Shown here one piece after another: positions 51,235 to 64,000 of a DNA stretch of 64,000 bases (positions within the stretch are counted from its first letter, which is position 1; every line of letters begins with the position of its first letter). A program made the position numbers and the translations under genes. This stretch comes from Chitinophagales bacterium. GTDB taxonomy: Bacteria > Bacteroidota > Bacteroidia > Chitinophagales > CAIODY01. The notes below the pieces were generated by a model. That model did not search any database. It saw nothing but the letters and a program-made list of their open reading frames with translations, and was not told where the DNA came from. The stretch spans positions 127,172-191,171 of the forward strand of contig CANGEV010000002.1 in the NCBI GenBank assembly GCA_947452995.1, given 5' to 3'.

Positions 51235-51876
51235 TTATATTATGTTTTGCTTCACAGCTTTAGCGACAGCCTCTTGCGCAGAATGCACATGAAGTTTTTC
51301 ATAGATTTTTTTAGTGTGTGCATTTACGGTATGCCACGAAATACTGAAGCGTTCGGCAATGGCTTTATAATTTAAGCCTTCGACCATTAAGCTTAAAATT
51401 TCAATTTCTCTCTCCGTAAGATTAAAGAGGGCTTTACCTCTCTCATTATTTGGTGTAATAGTTTGGAAAATATTTAAAACCTTCATTGCAATAGACGGCG
51501 TCATATAAGCCCCGCCTTGCGCCACCTCTCGGATTCCTTCTATTAATTTTTCAGGGGCGGTTTTCTTTAAGTAATAGCCACTGGCACCTGCTTGTAAGGC
51601 GGCAAAAATTTTATCGTCATCGTCAAACACTGTTTGCATGATAACGGGTAATGCAGGAACCGTTTTCTTAATTAGTTTTAAAGCTTCGATACCATTTATT
51701 TTAGGCATGTCAATATCCATTAAAACTACGGTCGGTTTTAAATTTATTACTTGTTGCGTGATTTTAGTGCAGTCTTCAAATGCACCAATGCAATGCATGT
51801 CAGGTGATTGATTGATCAGAAGCTCAATGCCTTCCAGACGCGCTATATTATCGTCATATGCTAGTATAAAAATCAT
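51235..51876 (-). CDS. LuxR/NarL-family response regulator
   Basis: A 213-residue regulator. The receiver domain (about 1-120) has the acidic pair Asp8-Asp9 and the phospho-acceptor Asp54 in VVLMDIDMP. The C-terminal LuxR-type helix-turn-helix (about 145-205) reads LTEREIEILSLMVEGLNYKA. It is 43 bases downstream of the sensor kinase in one operon and should be its partner. The operon is divergent from the giant adhesin gene, a possible target. Confidence 0.94.
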   Translation of the reverse strand: MIFILAYDDNIARLEGIELLINQSPDMHCIGAFEDCTKITQQVINLKPTVVLMDIDMPKINGIEALKLIKKTVPALPVIMQTVFDDDDKIFAALQAGASGYYLKKTAPEKLIEGIREVAQGGAYMTPSIAMKVLNIFQTITPNNERGKALFNLTEREIEILSLMVEGLNYKAIAERFSISWHTVNAHTKKIYEKLHVHSAQEAVAKAVKQNII

Positions 51877-51919
51877 GTCTCAATATACAATAAAGAATTA
51901 GAGCGTAGTGTCACTAATG

Positions 51920-54900
51920 TTAGTGATTTGAACATGGACAAATCAAAGTGATTGAAGTGCCTTCACTTATTTTACTGCGGATATTTACTTTACCATTCAA
52001 TTGCTCTGCCCGTTTACGCATATTTTTCAGTCCATTGCCTTGTTTTATGGTTGATTCATCAAACCCTATTCCATTATCTCTTATTTCTAAGTAAAGCATC
52101 TTCTGTTTATAATTTGCCTGTATTTCAAGTTTCGAGGCATTCGCATATTTCAAGGCATTATTGATTGCTTCCTTGTAGAATAAATAGATGTTTTTACGTT
52201 GTATCATTCCCATTTTTTGTCTACTTAAGGCAGGATCAACATGGAAACTAATGTTAACAGGAATATCTTCACTGAGCGAACTTGCATAATCTTTCATTTT
52301 AATAGAAAGATTGTCAAATTCATCGTTTTTAACATTGATCATCCACACGATGTCACTCATTGCATCTTGAGATGATTGAGTAAAGTTGCTGATTTTAGAT
52401 AGTAGCCTTTTTGCCTCCGTATTTTCGCTGTCTAGTTTTTGATTTATTATAGCTAAAAATAATGTGATGTTGCTAAGGTTCGCACCAACTTCATCATGTA
52501 AATCTTTTGCAATGCTATTTCTCATTTCCTCCATTTCTTTGTATTGGCCAAGCTTGGATCGAATGATTAATGTTATTATTAACGCAACTAGAATAATTAT
52601 GATAAGATAAAACCACCACGTTTTGAACCATGGCGTTTTGATATTAATTAGAAGTGGTGTGGCAAGGTAAGTCCAATTACCATAGCAGTCAGCAACTTTT
52701 ACCCTGAAAACATATTCACCTGGAGGGATTTTTAAAAAGTTAGCCTCGCGTTGCGTTCCGCATGTAATCCATTCAGAACTTAAACCTTCCAATTGGTAGG
52801 CATATTGATATTCATTATTTCTTAAATAGCCGAGCGCCGCGAATTCTATTTTTAAATTATTGTCAAAATAATTAAGGTCTAATTTATTTAGATTGCTAGG
52901 AATCTCTTTTCCATTATTCCAAATGGAGGTAATATAGATTGGATTGTTGAATGACGGGAATAAAGTCGTGTTTGGGTTGAAATAGTTGATTCCGCTTACT
53001 CCTCCAAAAACTAAAAAATTATTACTTGTTTTTAAAGATGCATTTGTATTGAATTCTGCACTTTGTAAACCATCAATACTTGAGTAACGTTGAAATTTAT
53101 TTGTTACACAATTATAGATATTCAATCCATTGTTAGTTCCCATCCAAATTTCGTTTTTCTTACCATATTGTATGGAATAGATATAATTGTCTCCCAGTCC
53201 GTCACTCGCGTTCGTTATTTTCAACGAATCAGTAAGATAATTATAATGAATTAACCCCATTCCATTAGAACCTAACCACAGCCAACCATTACCTTCATTC
53301 AGTATGCATCGGATGTTGGTGATTTTAATACTGTTATTTTTAGGTTTAAGCTTCTTGCTTAATTTTTTTTGTAAGTAGTTATATTCTATTAACCCGTTTT
53401 CACAGGCGATAAGCAAACGTAAAGGATCTGGCTGACTAAAATTAAATGTAATTCCAAAGTTTGGAATATCCCCATTGTTTGGTTTGAATCCTAAAATGGC
53501 TTCTGCCGGGTTTGCAATACCTTTTTTTAATTTATGCCAATCACACTTGTAAATTTTATTATCAGGAGTCCCTAACCATAAATTATTTTGATTATCAAAA
53601 AACATCGATCGAATCGTGCCTTCAATGATGCTTGCATCCTTTTGAGCGAAAATCACTTGCCCTTTTTTGGTTGTAGAGGATATACAGATAAGTTTTAACT
53701 CATGCCATCCAGAGATCCACAAATCACCTTCTGGATCTTTTAAAATAGCGCTTATGGGTAAATTACTCAGTTCTTTTTTAATCTCAGTTGGGAAGTTTGG
53801 TTCTACGAATTTTCTTTTTAAATTATCAAAGGCTAGTAATCCGTCAAGCGAGCCTATTAGCATATTATTAGCTTGCCATTCGCAAATGGTGCGAATATTT
53901 AATTTGTAAGGGGATTTATCGCTTATGCTTTTAAAATCTTGATATGGATTGTAGGGCGTAAACATCGAAGCACGATATTCCATTTTAATTAAGCCATTGC
54001 CAGGAGATGTTAGCCAAGTTACTTCCCCATCTGTATAAATGCTCTCCAAATTATTCGTGATGGATAGTCCGCTACCTGCCAAAGGTAGGTCGACTGTGAT
54101 GATTTTGTTTAGGCGGTGATCATATTCTAGCATTTTCTCATCTTCGCAAATCACCCAGAGGTTGCCGTGCATTCCTTTTGCAATCAGCTTAATTCCTTTG
54201 TAGTGGGAATTGTCCGTTATCAAATTTATGGGATGCGGCAATCCTCTTTTAAATAGTATAATCGAGTTTTTGTTTCGTAAATAATAAATACTGTCTCCTG
54301 AAGCTATTATTTGAGAAGCTGCACGAATTTGTGCTTGAATGTCTTCAGCTTGTTGAGATTCCGAAAATTGATTGTTTTTTAGGTTATAATCATAGATCTC
54401 CTCATTGAGAACAATGCATTTTGATAAGTTTTTATATGTGCTTGGGAATATTTTAGGAATTTTATCCAAAGGAGATTCACTTTTAACAGGGTAAATTGTT
54501 TTTTTATTCGTGCGATAATTATAAAAAACAACTTGTTTCTTTTGTTGAATTACAAGCTGTTCATTGATGGTTTCTTTTCCGATTTTGGAAGGTGGCCATT
54601 GACTTATATCTATCGTGTTTATGAGGGTTCCAAGGCTGTTAAATACAATTATTTTTTTTGCATTTGTATTGTGAATGATAAAGTTGTTTTCATCTTCAAT
54701 GAAATAGCAACTTGAGCCAACAGGATCTAATTTTTGAGTGATGGCGAATTTGGTTTTACCTGGTAAAATGCTAGCAATATAATCTTGAGTGATAAAAAGA
54801 ATTGTATTCGTTTCTTTTGATTGGGCATATGCCTTTAATCGAATAGGCGAGGGGGGCGGAGAGGTAATCTCGGAGCTAATATTCTTAAAACTATAGCCAT

Positions 54901-55102
54901 CAAATCTTCCGATCCCGTTTTCACTAAAAAGCCAGATGAATCCTTGCTTGTCCTTCAAGACACCCGAGATCGTGGATGAAACGAGCCGTTGCTCTTGGTT
55001 ATAATACGAAAAAATATAATTTTTATTTTGTGCAAAAACAGTGTTTAAGTACAAAAATTGACACCAAATGAGTAAATTTAGGACAAGCAGTTTACGGGGC
55101 AT
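51920..55102 (-). CDS. propeller-type sensor histidine kinase (Y_Y_Y domain)
   Basis: A 1060-residue sensor kinase. A signal or anchor (about 1-24) is followed by a large periplasmic part with two-component propeller repeats (for example GFIWLFSENGIGRFDGYSF and GWLWLGSNGMGLIHYNY), a Y_Y_Y domain (about 740-820, PPGEYVFRVKVAD), a membrane helix (about 825-848), then a HisKA_3 domain with phospho-acceptor His869 (AKDLHDEVGANLSNI) and an ATPase domain (DNGIGFD, GNGLKNM). It lacks the fused receiver and AraC domains of hybrid SusR-like sensors. The ligand is unknown, perhaps a glycan. Confidence 0.93.
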   Translation of the reverse strand: MPRKLLVLNLLIWCQFLYLNTVFAQNKNYIFSYYNQEQRLVSSTISGVLKDKQGFIWLFSENGIGRFDGYSFKNISSEITSPPPSPIRLKAYAQSKETNTILFITQDYIASILPGKTKFAITQKLDPVGSSCYFIEDENNFIIHNTNAKKIIVFNSLGTLINTIDISQWPPSKIGKETINEQLVIQQKKQVVFYNYRTNKKTIYPVKSESPLDKIPKIFPSTYKNLSKCIVLNEEIYDYNLKNNQFSESQQAEDIQAQIRAASQIIASGDSIYYLRNKNSIILFKRGLPHPINLITDNSHYKGIKLIAKGMHGNLWVICEDEKMLEYDHRLNKIITVDLPLAGSGLSITNNLESIYTDGEVTWLTSPGNGLIKMEYRASMFTPYNPYQDFKSISDKSPYKLNIRTICEWQANNMLIGSLDGLLAFDNLKRKFVEPNFPTEIKKELSNLPISAILKDPEGDLWISGWHELKLICISSTTKKGQVIFAQKDASIIEGTIRSMFFDNQNNLWLGTPDNKIYKCDWHKLKKGIANPAEAILGFKPNNGDIPNFGITFNFSQPDPLRLLIACENGLIEYNYLQKKLSKKLKPKNNSIKITNIRCILNEGNGWLWLGSNGMGLIHYNYLTDSLKITNASDGLGDNYIYSIQYGKKNEIWMGTNNGLNIYNCVTNKFQRYSSIDGLQSAEFNTNASLKTSNNFLVFGGVSGINYFNPNTTLFPSFNNPIYITSIWNNGKEIPSNLNKLDLNYFDNNLKIEFAALGYLRNNEYQYAYQLEGLSSEWITCGTQREANFLKIPPGEYVFRVKVADCYGNWTYLATPLLINIKTPWFKTWWFYLIIIILVALIITLIIRSKLGQYKEMEEMRNSIAKDLHDEVGANLSNITLFLAIINQKLDSENTEAKRLLSKISNFTQSSQDAMSDIVWMINVKNDEFDNLSIKMKDYASSLSEDIPVNISFHVDPALSRQKMGMIQRKNIYLFYKEAINNALKYANASKLEIQANYKQKMLYLEIRDNGIGFDESTIKQGNGLKNMRKRAEQLNGKVNIRSKISEGTSITLICPCSNH

Positions 55103-55240: not shown

Positions 55241-55335
55241 AGTGAATTCGCATTTGGTTCTATATTTTGCGCATCCTAAATGAGCACAAAGTTCATTTTT
55301 AGTTCATGAAAATTTTACAAACACCAATAAACAAC

Positions 55336-58300
55336 ATGAAACAAACAAACCACAAATTCTCCTGGAGATTGCGTCGTTTGGGTATTTTGGCGATTGCGCT
55401 CATTGCAGCGTTTTCGTTGAGTACGCAAGTGCGAGCGCAGGTCACAGGAACGAAAACGGTTGCTGCTAGTGGTGGGGATTACACCTCAATCGCTGCTGCG
55501 ATCACTGACTTAAACACCAATGGTGTCGGCATCGGCGGTGCTGTGATTAATGTACCTGCGGGTTGGACGGAAACTGCTCCTTCCGGCGGTTATAAGTTAG
55601 GTTCAACTACCTTGAATGCCTCGCTTAGCGCAACCAAGACCTTGACTTTCCAAAAGTCGGGTGCTGGTACCAATCCATTGTTAACTGCTTTCGTTGGGAC
55701 AATTGCAGGTGCCGGTGTAAGCACAGCCGCAACTGGTTACTCAGGTATCGGTGAAGGAATTTTTTCTTTGTCTGGAACGGACTACGTTACAATAGACGGC
55801 ATCGATTTGATAGATCCTTCAACCAACGCAACTGCGACGACGCAAATGGAATGGGGCTATGGGTTCTTCAAATTGAACTCTGCTGCTCCTTTTGATGGTT
55901 GTCAGTACAATACCATTAAGAATTGTACCATTACCATGATGGGAGGTGTGCAATCTGCGGGTATCGTATTTCAAAACTTTCAGGTTGGGGGTAGTACTGC
56001 TTTCACACCAACTGCTGTAACGGATGCGAATAGCTATAATAGATGTTATTCTAATACGATTCAAAAAATTGGTTCCGGTATTTATATTAAAGGCTATTTC
56101 AATAGTTCTGTGCTTACATATTGGGACACTAATAATGATTTCGGTGGTAGTTCTGTTGCTACGGGTAACACTATTAAATCATTCGGACCTGCTGCCACAA
56201 CAAATATTTGTAACGGTATTTACTCATTGAATCAATTGAATCTAAATGCATCTTACAATACGCTAAACAACTATAATGCTGGTGCGACTATCAATGGTAG
56301 TGCTACTGTAGCTCCCACAGCAGGATCATGCTATCAAATTTACAATGCAAATCAAACTGCCACCTCAGGTCTTCTTGAAAACGCAACTATCAAGGGTAAT
56401 ACGATTACCATGACTGGTGGTGCTGGTTCAACTGCCATGTACGGTATTTACAATTACTACAAAGGTGGTAATATGGATATCAGTAATAATGCATTTACTT
56501 GGGCTACAACTGGTACTACTACGGGTACATGGTATGCTATGTATGCTTACTACGCAACTGTGGGTGCTACAGGGTACTTCAAGAACAATTCACTGACAGG
56601 TACATTTGCAAATAGCACAGGTTCTTGTTATGGTTTTTATATGTACGCCCAATGTCAAACAAACACTGAATTTAGTGGTAATACCTTAAACAACATCACA
56701 CGTAATGCAGTAACCACAGGTACAACGTATTTATTTGCGCCTTATTACTCTACAAACTATAATACAGTAGGAACTACAACCAATATCTTTAACAATGTAA
56801 TTAACAATATTACCCTCGCTTCTACAGCAACTTCTGCTACCCTATATGCGACCTATTATATGGGGGGGAATTATAATTGTAATATTTACAATAATACCAT
56901 TTCTAACATCACCAATGCTGGTACTGCTGCGTCGGGTACTTTCTATGGTTTCTATGACTACTACTATGGAACCAATTGGAATGTATATGGTAACAACCTG
57001 AACACTGTTAACTGGGGCACTTCTACAGGAACTATCTATGGGACTTATCTATATGCATATTACGGTAATATCGTAAATTACTATAATAATAGCACCACAG
57101 GCTTAACTTCTAGTGGATCTATTTATGGCTTCTACGATTACTATCAATACAATGCAGCTACAAGTAACTATTACAACAATACCATCGCTGATTTAACAAG
57201 TAATGGAGCTACATCCATAATTTATTCGTGGTATAAATATGTTGAAACAGGAGATATCTTTATTCATCATAATACCATCAAGAATATTAAAAATGGAGCT
57301 GCAACCGCGGGAGCCTCTACTATCTATGGATTCTATGACTATGGTTATTGCCCAGTCAATGTGGGCAATATGGTTTTATATGACAATATCATCTCTGTTG
57401 GTAACAGTTCTGCAGGTGCAAATGCTTCTTCTAACTCTTCAGGTGGTTGTTATGCTTATTATAGTGCGGGTACTTCAACTGCACACCCTGTTAAATTGTA
57501 TTATAATACCTTGTCTGTTTTCGGAACTTCTGCGCAAGCAGCTTTCGGGGCGCATGGTATTTTTAATGCAAGTACAACCTATCCTGCCAAATTGGATGTA
57601 CGTAATAACCTAATTATGAACTATGCAGCTAATACGAATGCTACGCCATCAAGTAAAATGACTTGTATGCGTATTGGTGGTGCTGTGGGTACTTATTTGA
57701 ATACGGAGTATGATGCCAATTCAAACAACAATAACTATTTCCTAGCGAATGGTAGTGGTTCTTCAACCGTATATTATTATTTCTATGATGGTACAACAGG
57801 CTATAATACATTTGCTGGTATGAAGGGTGCAATTGGCGCTCGTGAATCTGCTTCATTTTCTGAAAACACTTCATTCTTAAGCAAGACTTCTTCCAATGCA
57901 AACTTCTTTAAGCCAGATCCTGCGGTTGCAACGCAAATTGAAAGTGCTGCACAACAAATCGGTACTGCATTAGTTGCTGGTGGTATCACTACCGATTATG
58001 CTGGTACGGTACGTCAAGGTAATGTGGGTTATTTAGGTAGTTCTCCTGCGGGTCCGGATATGGGTGCATATGAGGGTAACTATACAGCTCTTGACTTGGC
58101 TGCTCCAATTATTACGCATACGGCAGCTGGCTTCACTTGTAATACAGGTGACAGAACAATTACTGCGACTATCGCAGACTATACTGGGGTGGATACAACC
58201 TTAGCACCAACCATCTATTTCAAAAAGAATTCAGGTACTTGGTACAGCGCTGCTGGTACACGTACTGCGGGTTCGTATAAGTCAGGTACTTGGTCGTTTG

Positions 58301-61300
58301 TAATTGGAGCTGCTGCTATGGGTGGCTTAGTGCCTAATGATGTTGTTTCTTACTATATCGTTGCACAAGACTTAGCGACTCCATCTGCAAATATGGGTTC
58401 TTTGCCTGTCGGTGCTGTAATGACAAATGTTAATACAGTTACCACTCCTCCAACAACACCGTATTCTTATTCAATAGGTAATCAATTGTCTGGTACCTAT
58501 CCAGTAGGTGCTGGTCAGGCTGCCAATGGTGGTTTCAATACCCTTACAGCAGCCGCTGCCGCATACAATGTAAATTGCTTAAGTGGAAATATCGTTTTCT
58601 TATTGACAGATACCTTGTACAATGCAACAACAGAAACATTCCCTGTAACTTTTGGTGTGAATCCATTTGCAAGTTCATCGAATACCTTGACTATTAAGCC
58701 TGCTTCTTCTAATACGGTATATTTCCGTTCTTCAACGGCAACAGGTTTTATTAAGTTGAATGGTGCAGACTATATCACAATCGATGGTTCAAATAATGGA
58801 TCTACTTCTCGCGATTTGAATTTTGTTAATACCTCTACTGCTGCGAATGCTGCAATTTGGTTAGCTTCATTAGGTGGTGCGAATAGTGGTGCTACTTATA
58901 ATACCGTGAAGAATTGTAATATTTGGGCGAATGCTGCACAATCTTCTTCTACGAATATTTATGGTATCGTTTCTTCAACTACAGGTGCACAAACCTCAGC
59001 TGGTGAAAACAATGATAACAATACGTTCCAAAATAACAACATTCGTAAAGTATGGATTGGTATTTCATGTCTAAATAGTGCAACAAATAAATCCTCTAAC
59101 GTTGTAATTAAGAATAACGTGATTGGTGCACAATCAGCTCCATATACACAAAGTACTTCTGTTGCGCCTTATTATGCCGTAACTGATTTTGGTGTGGAAG
59201 TTGATAATGCGTTGAACTTTAATATCCAAGGGAATGACATTGATGGAGTATTCTCTACAGGTACGAACTATTATCCAACGGGTATTCGTGTTGGTGTAAA
59301 TGCTACTGGTAATATCGATGGTAATAAAATACACGGTATGTATATCAATACAGGTGGTTGGGGTGCTTATGGTATCCACATAAATGGCGCTTCAGCTGGT
59401 GTTACGATTAAAAATAACATGATTTATGATATCATGACTGAAAACTATTCGTCATCATCTACAACGTATAATGCTTTTGGTATCCGCTTGTCTGTGGCTA
59501 CAACGAATACTAAAATCTATAATAATTCTATTTATTTAGCAGGTACAGTTTCTTTGAATACTTCTTCAGCAATGTCGGCGTGTTTATTGTCTGTAACAGC
59601 TCAAACCGGCTTAGAAGTAAAGAATAACATCTTTGTAAACGAGATGAAGTCTACTGTAGCAGGTTCTCAATTCTACTCAGTATGGTGGGCTGTAGCTCCA
59701 ACCTTTACTTCATGGGATTATAATGATTATTATGGAACAACATCTGCAAGTACTCCTTATGGTGCATACAATGTTGGTTATGTAAATGGTGTTTCAACAT
59801 CAACTATGACTGCATTTAAAGCTGCTATGGGTGCTGGTGTAGATGCGAATTCTTTGAATTTGCCTGTACCATTTGTTTCTGCAACCGACTTGCATTTGAA
59901 TTTTGGTACGACTCCTACATTATTTGAATCAGGTGGACAAACATTAGCTGCTGTAACAACTGACTTTGATGGTCAAAGCCGTCCTGGTCCTGCTGGTTCT
60001 GTGAATGGCGGTGCTACTGCAAGTGATATTGGAGCGGATGAGTTTGATGGTTTCCCATTACCACACTGTTCTACTATTACACCTGGAACAACAGTTTCTT
60101 CTGCTAATCCAATCTGTTCTGGATGGCCTTTCACGCTTTCATTGAGCGGTGCAAGTAATCCTACGTTGATTGGTGGTTTGAACTTCCAATGGATGAAATC
60201 TACCAATGGTGGTACTACATGGAGCGTAATTCCAGGTGCTACTAACCCTACATACAATAACCCTGGTATTACAGTTGCGACCATGTACCATTGCGTAATC
60301 GGTTGTAACTATAACCCTGGTGTTTATGATTCTTCAGCTAACGTCAGCGTTACCTTAAATACGTATGTAAACTGTTATTGTCAGTCTACACACTATACGG
60401 ATTATAACTATCCTGCTTCTAACTATACCGTGTATGGTAAGATTTTACAAGTTCAATTGGGTACGATTAACTATACAAACCCTGCTACACAATTCGTTGC
60501 TCCTTACTATACTGCAGTACCGAATACAGTTAACACCAATATCATTGCTGGTCAAACCTATACTTTAAGTGTTCGTTGTGATTATGGTTATTTTGGTATT
60601 TTAGCATGGATTGACTGGAATGCAAATGGTGTATTTGACGCTTCTGAATATTATAATTTAGGATCTACGAGTACCGGTACTACAGGTTCATCTCAGACTT
60701 TATCAATGCAAATTGTTGCTCCGGTAACGATTCCTACGGCAGCAGCAAAGATTCGTCTTCGTACTAACTATTATAGTTATATTGGTTATGCAGGACCTGG
60801 TGATGCATGTACGAATGGTACGAGTAGTTCTACAGCACCATTCTATTATGGTGAAACGATGGATTATTTCTTGAATTTGATTGGTTTGCCGGCAACACCT
60901 GCTAACCCAACTTTAAGTGCAGTTCCTGTTAGTTGTATTGCAGGTACTACAATTGTACCTACAGGTACTCCTGCTACTGGTGTTGATTGGTACTGGCAAA
61001 ATTCTGCTACAGATACTTTCCATACTTCTGCAAATCTTGTTAGCGGTCCTTTAAGTATTTATGCAAATGGAACATATTATATCCGTGCATATAATTCAGC
61101 TTTCAATATTTGGTCAACAGGTGCTGGTTCTATCACAGTAAACAGTTTCCCTGCAGGTCCTAATGCACCAACAACTCCAGTTGCTGCAGCTAATCCTGCA
61201 TGTTCGTCTGGTACTACAGTAACAGTTGCTTCTGCTCCAGCAGGTGAAACCTACTATTGGCAAACAAGTACTGGTACATTCAGTCAAAGTAATAATGCAA

Positions 61301-64000
61301 GTAATCCATTAACGGTTACAACAAACTCTACTGTTGTAGTTCGTTCATTGGATAATACTTCAGGTTGTTGGTCGAATCCATCAAGTTTAAACGTTACAAT
61401 TTTACCTACAATTACAGGTGCTTCATTCAATGTGACGAGTTCTGCAACGTGTGCTAACGTTGGTGATGGAACGATTTTGGTTGTTCCTGGTTCAAACCCT
61501 CCATTATTACCTTGGTATTATAATGACTTCAATGCTGCATTTACAAACAATGCGTCTGCTCAAGTCTTTGGTACAGGTACAGTAAGTAGTGGTAAGTTGA
61601 TTATGACACAGAATGCTGCAAGCCAAGCGGGTGGCGGTATTCAAGTGTTTAATCCGTCTGCGCTTAATGCAAATGCATTTGACATTAATTTCGATATCGT
61701 TACATTATATGGTAACGGTTATGCTGATGGTATTTCGTATAGCTTCGGTGACGACGTTGTGCAAATTCCTAGCCCAGCTACCAACGGTACTAATCCTGAA
61801 AATGGTTCTGGTACGAAGTTGAAATTAGCTTTTGATGAATATGCAAATGGTAGTAATGCCCCTGGTATTTATTTGATGTACAATTGTAATGTGTTGAACC
61901 AAACGTCTACAACTCCTGGTGTTTTAGCTTATAATGCATCAACTTCATGGACTAACTCAAGTTCTACTACGTATAAAACAACGCATATTCAGATTACTAT
62001 TAACACAGCTGGTCAAGTAACAGTTAAGGTAAATGGGACTCCTGTTTTTACGAACATTCAATTACCGAATGGTTATTTAGCAACCAATAAATCTAACTGG
62101 TCGCATGTATTTGTTTCTCGTACGGGAGCTGTATATGATGAACACTCGATTGATAATTTCGATGTGAAATATTATGATGTAAACTATTATGCATATAGCG
62201 TTAATTCGGGTTCTACTTGGCAAACTGCTAATAACTTCAACTTGAATGCTGGTACATATCCTGTTTGGATCACGTATAATTCAAACCAAGCATGTTCAGT
62301 TAATTTGGGTAATGGTACTATAACAGCGCCTATCTTCAATTTAACTTCAACAAGTGATAGTATGTGTACGTATTATTCAATGGTTCCTACTTTGAATTTA
62401 TCGCCAACTTTCGCTGCTGACTCATTCAAATGGGAGAGTTCTCCTCTAGGTACTAATACCTGGTCAGTAATTACTGGTGCACGTTCTGGCTCATATACTC
62501 CTGCAACTTATACAAGTTCGTTGGATTATAGATTGAGTTTGAATTGTGGTACAGGTGTTGCGTCAACAACTAAATATCAAACTGGTGTTAAGTCAACTTA
62601 TGCAGTTACACCAACTATTACATCGACTTCTCAAACAGTTACGCCTTGTGGTATTGGTACAGCTACCTTGAATGCAACTGCCTCTAGTGGTGCAACACCT
62701 CAATGGTTGCAAACTAGTTCAATGTCGGTTCCATTAGCTCTTGGAGGGACGTATACTACTCCAACATTATCAAGTACTACGAATTATTATGTTTCGGCAT
62801 CACAAGGTGGTACAATGTTTAACTTAGGTTTGGCTAACTATGTGGTTAACTCAACAAACTCCGGTTTCTCTGATATCGGTTTGATGTTTGATGCTACAGT
62901 TCCATTCTTATTACAGTCTGTTGCCGTATATCCAATAAACACTACTGCTGGTCCTGCTACCATTACTGTAGCAGTGAAGAATGCAGCTGGTACTGTATTG
63001 CAAAGCACTACACTCAACATTACATCTTGTCTTTCTTCAAGCCCTGTTAAAACGGTGCTTCCATTAAACTTTAACGTTCCTGCAGGAACCGGAAATAGAT
63101 TAGTGGTAACTGCAGTTACAGGTTTGACTGGTTTAATTCGTGAGGTGACCACTGGTTATACTTACCCTTATACTATACCAGGTATTGCAAGTATCACATC
63201 AGCTTATACTAGTGGTGCTTCTACAAGCTACTACTACTATTTCTATGATTGGAAATTGTCTACTGGTTGTGCGTCTACGCCGCAAGCTGTTCCTGCTGTT
63301 GTTATTACGGCTCCGTCTATTACGGCTTCTGTGACACCTGCTACAGATACGGTATGTGCTGGAGGAAGTTCAAGCTTGAACGTAACTTCATCGAATTCTA
63401 ATTATACGTATACTTGGACTCCAGGTTCTTTGAGTGGTGCAGCGCAAACTGTAACACCAACTCCGACGACTACAGTTCAAACTAAAAATTACTATCGTGT
63501 TAATGCAATTGATGCTGGAACAGGTTGTAAAAACAAGGATTCAGTATTGGTGGTAGTAAACCCTAACCCTTCTGCTGTTACTGTTACACCAGTATCACCG
63601 CATATGCTCGTTGGTTCACCTGCACAGTTAACTGCGACAGGAGGTACGAATGGATCTACAGGTTTGGCTATTATTGGAACTGGTACGACTCAAAATTCAA
63701 GCTCAGTATATCCTTCTCCTTATGGGTTGTATTATGGTTCTTCTCATGAACAATATATTATCACTGCTGCAGAATTGACGGCTGCTGGTATTCCTGCTGG
63801 TCAGATTACTTCTTTGGCCTTTAACTTAGCGTCAGTAGCTAATACTACATACAATTATCAGTATTTCAATATCCAAATGGGTAATACAAGTACTGCTAAT
63901 TTCTCTACTGCAGCTTTGGTAACCACTGGTCTAACACAAGTATATACAAATACTGCCGGGTTTATGTTAACAGGTTCAGGTTGGAAGACTTACACATTTA
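55336..64000 (+). CDS. giant secreted adhesin-like protein, probable type IX cargo (3' end beyond window)
   Basis: One frame stays open for at least 2888 codons, from the ATG at 55336 to the window edge. Residues 1-35 are a signal peptide (cleavage after VRAQ). A first beta-helix-like part covers about 110-350; about twelve tyrosine-rich repeats of 30-38 residues (about 354-760) follow, then an Ig-like region (about 924-1035), a second beta-helix part (about 1136-1435), an Ig-like domain, a GEVED domain (about 1690-1850, WIDWNANGVFD and FYYGETMDYF), two Ig-like repeats, a ConA-like lectin domain (about 2056-2285) and further beta domains. Type IX C-terminal signals would lie outside the window. 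It probably acts in surface adhesion or glycan binding. Confidence 0.92.
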   Translation, partial: MKQTNHKFSWRLRRLGILAIALIAAFSLSTQVRAQVTGTKTVAASGGDYTSIAAAITDLNTNGVGIGGAVINVPAGWTETAPSGGYKLGSTTLNASLSATKTLTFQKSGAGTNPLLTAFVGTIAGAGVSTAATGYSGIGEGIFSLSGTDYVTIDGIDLIDPSTNATATTQMEWGYGFFKLNSAAPFDGCQYNTIKNCTITMMGGVQSAGIVFQNFQVGGSTAFTPTAVTDANSYNRCYSNTIQKIGSGIYIKGYFNSSVLTYWDTNNDFGGSSVATGNTIKSFGPAATTNICNGIYSLNQLNLNASYNTLNNYNAGATINGSATVAPTAGSCYQIYNANQTATSGLLENATIKGNTITMTGGAGSTAMYGIYNYYKGGNMDISNNAFTWATTGTTTGTWYAMYAYYATVGATGYFKNNSLTGTFANSTGSCYGFYMYAQCQTNTEFSGNTLNNITRNAVTTGTTYLFAPYYSTNYNTVGTTTNIFNNVINNITLASTATSATLYATYYMGGNYNCNIYNNTISNITNAGTAASGTFYGFYDYYYGTNWNVYGNNLNTVNWGTSTGTIYGTYLYAYYGNIVNYYNNSTTGLTSSGSIYGFYDYYQYNAATSNYYNNTIADLTSNGATSIIYSWYKYVETGDIFIHHNTIKNIKNGAATAGASTIYGFYDYGYCPVNVGNMVLYDNIISVGNSSAGANASSNSSGGCYAYYSAGTSTAHPVKLYYNTLSVFGTSAQAAFGAHGIFNASTTYPAKLDVRNNLIMNYAANTNATPSSKMTCMRIGGAVGTYLNTEYDANSNNNNYFLANGSGSSTVYYYFYDGTTGYNTFAGMKGAIGARESASFSENTSFLSKTSSNANFFKPDPAVATQIESAAQQIGTALVAGGITTDYAGTVRQGNVGYLGSSPAGPDMGAYEGNYTALDLAAPIITHTAAGFTCNTGDRTITATIADYTGVDTTLAPTIYFKKNSGTWYSAAGTRTAGSYKSGTWSFVIGAAAMGGLVPNDVVSYYIVAQDLATPSANMGSLPVGAVMTNVNTVTTPPTTPYSYSIGNQLSGTYPVGAGQAANGGFNTLTAAAAAYNVNCLSGNIVFLLTDTLYNATTETFPVTFGVNPFASSSNTLTIKPASSNTVYFRSSTATGFIKLNGADYITIDGSNNGSTSRDLNFVNTSTAANAAIWLASLGGANSGATYNTVKNCNIWANAAQSSSTNIYGIVSSTTGAQTSAGENNDNNTFQNNNIRKVWIGISCLNSATNKSSNVVIKNNVIGAQSAPYTQSTSVAPYYAVTDFGVEVDNALNFNIQGNDIDGVFSTGTNYYPTGIRVGVNATGNIDGNKIHGMYINTGGWGAYGIHINGASAGVTIKNNMIYDIMTENYSSSSTTYNAFGIRLSVATTNTKIYNNSIYLAGTVSLNTSSAMSACLLSVTAQTGLEVKNNIFVNEMKSTVAGSQFYSVWWAVAPTFTSWDYNDYYGTTSASTPYGAYNVGYVNGVSTSTMTAFKAAMGAGVDANSLNLPVPFVSATDLHLNFGTTPTLFESGGQTLAAVTTDFDGQSRPGPAGSVNGGATASDIGADEFDGFPLPHCSTITPGTTVSSANPICSGWPFTLSLSGASNPTLIGGLNFQWMKSTNGGTTWSVIPGATNPTYNNPGITVATMYHCVIGCNYNPGVYDSSANVSVTLNTYVNCYCQSTHYTDYNYPASNYTVYGKILQVQLGTINYTNPATQFVAPYYTAVPNTVNTNIIAGQTYTLSVRCDYGYFGILAWIDWNANGVFDASEYYNLGSTSTGTTGSSQTLSMQIVAPVTIPTAAAKIRLRTNYYSYIGYAGPGDACTNGTSSSTAPFYYGETMDYFLNLIGLPATPANPTLSAVPVSCIAGTTIVPTGTPATGVDWYWQNSATDTFHTSANLVSGPLSIYANGTYYIRAYNSAFNIWSTGAGSITVNSFPAGPNAPTTPVAAANPACSSGTTVTVASAPAGETYYWQTSTGTFSQSNNASNPLTVTTNSTVVVRSLDNTSGCWSNPSSLNVTILPTITGASFNVTSSATCANVGDGTILVVPGSNPPLLPWYYNDFNAAFTNNASAQVFGTGTVSSGKLIMTQNAASQAGGGIQVFNPSALNANAFDINFDIVTLYGNGYADGISYSFGDDVVQIPSPATNGTNPENGSGTKLKLAFDEYANGSNAPGIYLMYNCNVLNQTSTTPGVLAYNASTSWTNSSSTTYKTTHIQITINTAGQVTVKVNGTPVFTNIQLPNGYLATNKSNWSHVFVSRTGAVYDEHSIDNFDVKYYDVNYYAYSVNSGSTWQTANNFNLNAGTYPVWITYNSNQACSVNLGNGTITAPIFNLTSTSDSMCTYYSMVPTLNLSPTFAADSFKWESSPLGTNTWSVITGARSGSYTPATYTSSLDYRLSLNCGTGVASTTKYQTGVKSTYAVTPTITSTSQTVTPCGIGTATLNATASSGATPQWLQTSSMSVPLALGGTYTTPTLSSTTNYYVSASQGGTMFNLGLANYVVNSTNSGFSDIGLMFDATVPFLLQSVAVYPINTTAGPATITVAVKNAAGTVLQSTTLNITSCLSSSPVKTVLPLNFNVPAGTGNRLVVTAVTGLTGLIREVTTGYTYPYTIPGIASITSAYTSGASTSYYYYFYDWKLSTGCASTPQAVPAVVITAPSITASVTPATDTVCAGGSSSLNVTSSNSNYTYTWTPGSLSGAAQTVTPTPTTTVQTKNYYRVNAIDAGTGCKNKDSVLVVVNPNPSAVTVTPVSPHMLVGSPAQLTATGGTNGSTGLAIIGTGTTQNSSSVYPSPYGLYYGSSHEQYIITAAELTAAGIPAGQITSLAFNLASVANTTYNYQYFNIQMGNTSTANFSTAALVTTGLTQVYTNTAGFMLTGSGWKTYTF

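Follow-up and report, generated by a model that had tools for sequence, protein, structure and literature searches.

Tyrosine-decorated coils on the N-terminal beta-helix of a giant Chitinophagales surface protein, a probable type IX secretion cargo

A stretch of 64,000 nucleotides from a Chitinophagales bacterium (the window) holds the 5' part of a gene for a giant surface protein, the N-terminal part of which repeats a tyrosine cluster again and again. What structure do these repeats build, how does it reach the outside of the cell, and what could so many tyrosines be doing on it? The open reading frame starts at 55306 and runs on to the end of the genome contig C2, where the gene is broken off after the residues ...GAFELIPNPT; it encodes at least 3653 amino acids, 3653 being the last codon. 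The layout is as follows.

51235-55102: divergent two-component pair directly upstream of the giant gene, a NarL-type response regulator and a large NarX/UhpB-type sensor kinase
55306..63999, + strand: open reading frame for the giant surface protein, continuing past the window end
55306..55440, + strand: putative signal peptide region, residues 1-45, ending ...VRAQ (read from the translation)
55441..56325, + strand: N-terminal cap and first beta-helix coils, residues 46-340 (AlphaFold model and alignments)
56326..57546, + strand: twelve tyrosine-rich beta-helix coils, residues 341-747 (strand assignment), with A-strand cuts at residues 375, 406, 438, 471, 510, 543, 574, 603, 636, 670 and 712
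57547..58020, + strand: end of the first beta-helix, with its final coils and C-terminal cap, residues 748-905 (AlphaFold model)
58663..60045, + strand: second beta-helix-like region, residues about 1120-1580, without tyrosine triads (from sequence)
60604..60876, + strand: GEVED domain, residues 1767-1857 (Pfam/NCBIfam-type domain search)
62611..62805, + strand: Ig_7 domain, residues 2436-2500, one of several (domain search)

The repeats are divergent, with a period near 33 residues. Over residues 336-790 the autocorrelation has a peak at a lag of 33 residues (z 5.6 relative to 500 shuffled sequences) and additional maxima at 29-40 and 69. When the region is cut by hand before each tyrosine cluster, it falls into 11 units of 29-42 residues, and one degenerate unit precedes them. 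An earlier sequence-only reading of the window had counted about twelve tyrosine-rich repeats at 56395-57640, which agrees with our count and lies close to the span given by strand assignment. The unit consensus reads S/T-G-T-h-Y-G-h-Y-x-Y-Y, a turn, N-x-I-Y-N-N-T-I-x-N-I-T and then a Ser/Thr/Gly loop. In residues 354-760 we count 9 copies of the pattern Y..Y.Y, where 5000 shuffles gave 0.9 on average and never more than 6. With the second beta-helix-like region of the same protein as an internal control, tyrosine makes up 13.5% of the coil region, 5.0% of the second helix and 6.3% of the remaining protein. AT-rich codon bias was rejected as the source of the tyrosines, as the GC content of the coils (0.37) is near that of the window (0.39) and the same gene encodes a second helix that is not rich in tyrosine. 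TRF detects no DNA tandem array over the repeats; the units therefore diverged long ago, and a recent DNA tandem duplication is ruled out.

We modelled residues 46-905 with AlphaFold2 (pLDDT 85.7, pTM 0.89) and, separately, the coils alone (residues 332-770; pLDDT 88.3, pTM 0.91), where regular coils were found. In both models nearly every repeat gives three strands: A (YGFYDYY), which is long at 8-9 residues, B (N-x-I-Y) and C (T-I-x-N-I-T). Three strands per repeat mean one coil per repeat, and the two turns per repeat previously proposed must be given up. Foldseek by itself gave weak matches (best E 1.2e-3), and the fold was settled by VIA together with the coil-only model. VIA superposed 323 of the 439 residues on AlgE6 (5lw3; Z 27.1, rmsd 3.7), and its other matches included the Sf6 tailspike (Z 26.4), RbmB (25.5) and Vag8 (24.8). 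The parallel beta-helix suggested from the sequence is borne out, as a pectin-lyase-like right-handed beta-helix, a fold that is ordinary and well described. AlgE epimerase modules, Sf6/HK620 tailspikes, PL6 lyases and the Vag8 passenger have the same fold over the coil region (Z 22-27) and share three strands per coil and an Asn ladder with the giant protein, whereas identity is only about 7-15% and the coils here are larger (mean about 33), bear tyrosine columns and lack conserved catalytic residues. A phage origin was considered and rejected: no phage record codes for a coil relative, and the viral fold matches are generic beta-helices.

The genome encodes SprA (2508 bits) and contains 119 type A sorting-tail matches. 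An orthologue from the same genus (contig G002:C48) reads ...GAFELIPNPTSDNVFVEY... and closes with a full type A sorting domain (TIGR04183 / PF18962; E 6e-14 and 2e-12), which begins exactly where contig C2 stops, at FELIPNPT. Because the orthologue has a complete domain there, the missing C-terminal end very probably holds one as well, and the giant protein is very likely a cargo of the type IX system that would be anchored at the surface. The contig end (L002:13436) cuts the gene where this presumed domain starts and probably reflects an assembly break within sequence common to the gene and a paralogue on contig C32, the tails of the two being nearly identical. We are highly confident both that the first 860 residues fold into a right-handed parallel beta-helix and that the protein leaves the cell by the type IX system.

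C-terminal of the first helix the protein carries GEVED, Ig_7 and fn3 domains, which are common in Bacteroidota surface proteins. The second beta-helix-like region includes a weak choice_anch_Q match at residues 1544-1580. Residues about 2102-2401 (window 61609-62508) look lectin-like by eye (GYADGISYSFGDD); a lectin domain was dismissed there, Pfam and PDB searches having returned no match.

The repeats had also been thought to belong to no named family. This stands as regards curated models, since the coils match none of the beta-helix models of Pfam or NCBIfam even at E up to 10, and literature searches yielded no description of a YGxYxY coil repeat. It fails as regards the protein type, as the fold is well described and the YGxY...N-I-x-N-N-T-I coil is common to many Bacteroidota surface proteins, a type that is widespread though without a curated model. 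Relatives were taken from named genomes and the coil regions of 50 sequences aligned; they occur across Bacteroidota, among Chitinophagales, Flavobacteriales, Bacteroidales, Ignavibacteria and others. Against PDB sequences the family profile gave one match only, 9rx2 (Parallel beta-helix repeat protein; E 1.3e-4), which is short, gapped and rests on the generic N-x-I-x-N-N pattern. Residues 46-340 are the best conserved part of the family in the alignments, and Bacteroidota type A cargo proteins with N-terminal beta-helices (relatives L023-L101) share the N-terminal cap and the YGxY...NIxNNTIxN coil with the giant protein, at 31-60% identity.

The difference from these relatives lies in the third tyrosine of strand A (82% vs 2%) and in later tyrosines, which are particular to the clade of the giant protein. 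At positions 5, 8 and 10 of strand A, tyrosine stands in 49%, 47% and only 2% of cases in 47 relatives, and in 100%, 91% and 82% in the giant protein; in this tally the Asn anchor for the last coil stood one residue too far on (735 instead of 734), which slightly lowers the giant protein's value at N0. Two kin sequences resemble it in their strand A tyrosines. Judged by these alignments, YGxY, with two tyrosines per coil, is a family-wide preference, and the third tyrosine of YGxYxY, with the later ones, is special to the clade. Among the 298 genomes searched from the order and 395 from the class, only members of the family carry clear homologues with the triad. They are present in 3 of the family's 6 genomes, a lower bound given that 2 of the 6 are fragmented and below 90% completeness; a search for the repeat in other genomes thus finds the coil widespread in Bacteroidota and the triad confined. 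A paralogue in the same genome (L104) belongs to the same helix family without the triad, so that both types occur side by side. The fold is known and the surface-protein type widespread; what sets the giant protein apart is a tyrosine decoration that is conserved and specific to its clade.

Is this decoration exposed, and is it maintained? In the same-genus orthologue, where overall coil identity is 54%, coil tyrosines are kept at 20 of 22 positions against 101 of 188 for all coil residues (Fisher p = 1.5e-4), and in a homologue from another genus at 34 of 52 against 147 of 387 (p = 2.3e-5), counts that may be raised if tyrosines steer the aligner. No such preference for tyrosines is seen in the N-terminal domain of these sequences (9 of 16 kept, p = 0.6, and 5 of 16), and the hydrophobic positions A4 and A7 of the coils drift (1 of 6 and 1 of 5 kept). 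The dN/dS ratio of about 0.3 to 0.5 is indicative at most, dS being near-saturated. Charged residues take up 0-1% of the relatives' residues at A4, A7, N-3 and N+2 and 8-16% at A5, A8 and N-2, from which we infer that the former point inward and the latter outward. A8 appears the most firmly outward and A10 next, by parity, although its low charged share in relatives (3%) speaks against this. A5 is the least certain: two-residue parity would set it on the face of A7 unless G6 is a bulge, as we read it. The sequence-only reading had pictured tyrosine ladders as a surface stripe. They are indeed stacked in register, and these substitution patterns suggest that the stripe is probably exposed and under selection.

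Our best reading, offered tentatively, is a giant surface adhesin delivered by the type IX secretion system, with an aromatic stripe on its first helix that binds an extended ligand. The tyrosines at strand A positions 5, 8 and 10 (YGxYxY) in the twelve coils, often joined by a strand B tyrosine ahead of the Asn ladder (I-Y-N-N), would be stacked about 4.8 A apart into a multi-column stripe down one face, and an extended ligand, most likely a polysaccharide, could be gripped along the helix. The proteins with the nearest folds, the group of AlgE6, Sf6 tailspike, RbmB and Vag8, for the most part process or bind long polysaccharides. Taken by itself, binding of an extended ligand by the stripe is a possibility to be held with some reserve.

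The same stacked rings might instead stiffen and stabilise a polar helix rich in Thr, Asn and Ser, with no ligand at all. The family-wide preference for YGxY (about 48% tyrosine at A5 and A8 in relatives) may mark a stability motif, and the length of strand A in the model fits this; the relatives, however, share the coil pattern nearly without the third tyrosine, and core positions vary while the tyrosines stay, which leaves a purely structural role unlikely. Less probable still is self-association, in which two helices of the same cell or of neighbouring cells would pair along their ladders to give fibres or cell-cell contact. Its precedent comes from models of bacterial ice nucleation proteins, where tyrosines stacked on the outside of beta-solenoids form a proposed pairing surface (PMC9247515, PMC10727499) similar to the stripe inferred here, and the ladder of the giant protein is likewise continuous and conserved. 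Those proteins, however, have 16-residue coils with one tyrosine column and TxT and YGS motifs, as against 29-42 residues, YGxYxY and N-I-x-N-N-T-I here; we saw no sequence relation between the two, and many other domains of the giant protein could do the adhering.

The top structural matches, AlgE epimerases, PL6, GH28 and tailspike enzymes, would also allow a polysaccharide lyase, epimerase or hydrolase whose tyrosines line a substrate groove. Yet the invariant or nearly invariant coil columns of the 50 aligned sequences are all N, G, I, S or F, and no enzyme family matches the coils in family searches. This reading is weak because no acidic or basic column, and hence no catalytic cluster, is conserved in the alignment, and we regard an enzyme as very improbable. 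Finally, a stripe for binding ice or ordering water, in the manner of the tyrosine-rich site of a midge antifreeze protein or bacterial ice nucleation arrays, has parallels in outward Tyr and Thr arrays on other solenoids (PMC9418140 and its reference 66) but is the most remote of these readings, because the coils lack a regular TxT array and their varying length (29 to 42 residues) makes a flat regular lattice unlikely.

One could go further and propose that this clade made a common secreted beta-helix into an exposed, multi-column tyrosine binding rail, kept more strictly than the core and gripping a long polymer or zipping two helices together; in this full form the proposal is doubtful. 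The locus nonetheless brings out a widespread type of Bacteroidota surface-protein helix that has had no curated sequence model. Its clade points to where selection would act on the coil, at the outward-looking tyrosines and not the core. This allows a specific guess, open to experiment, as to which face of such proteins does the binding, and the coils of the clade can be set beside ice nucleation proteins and their tyrosine ladders.
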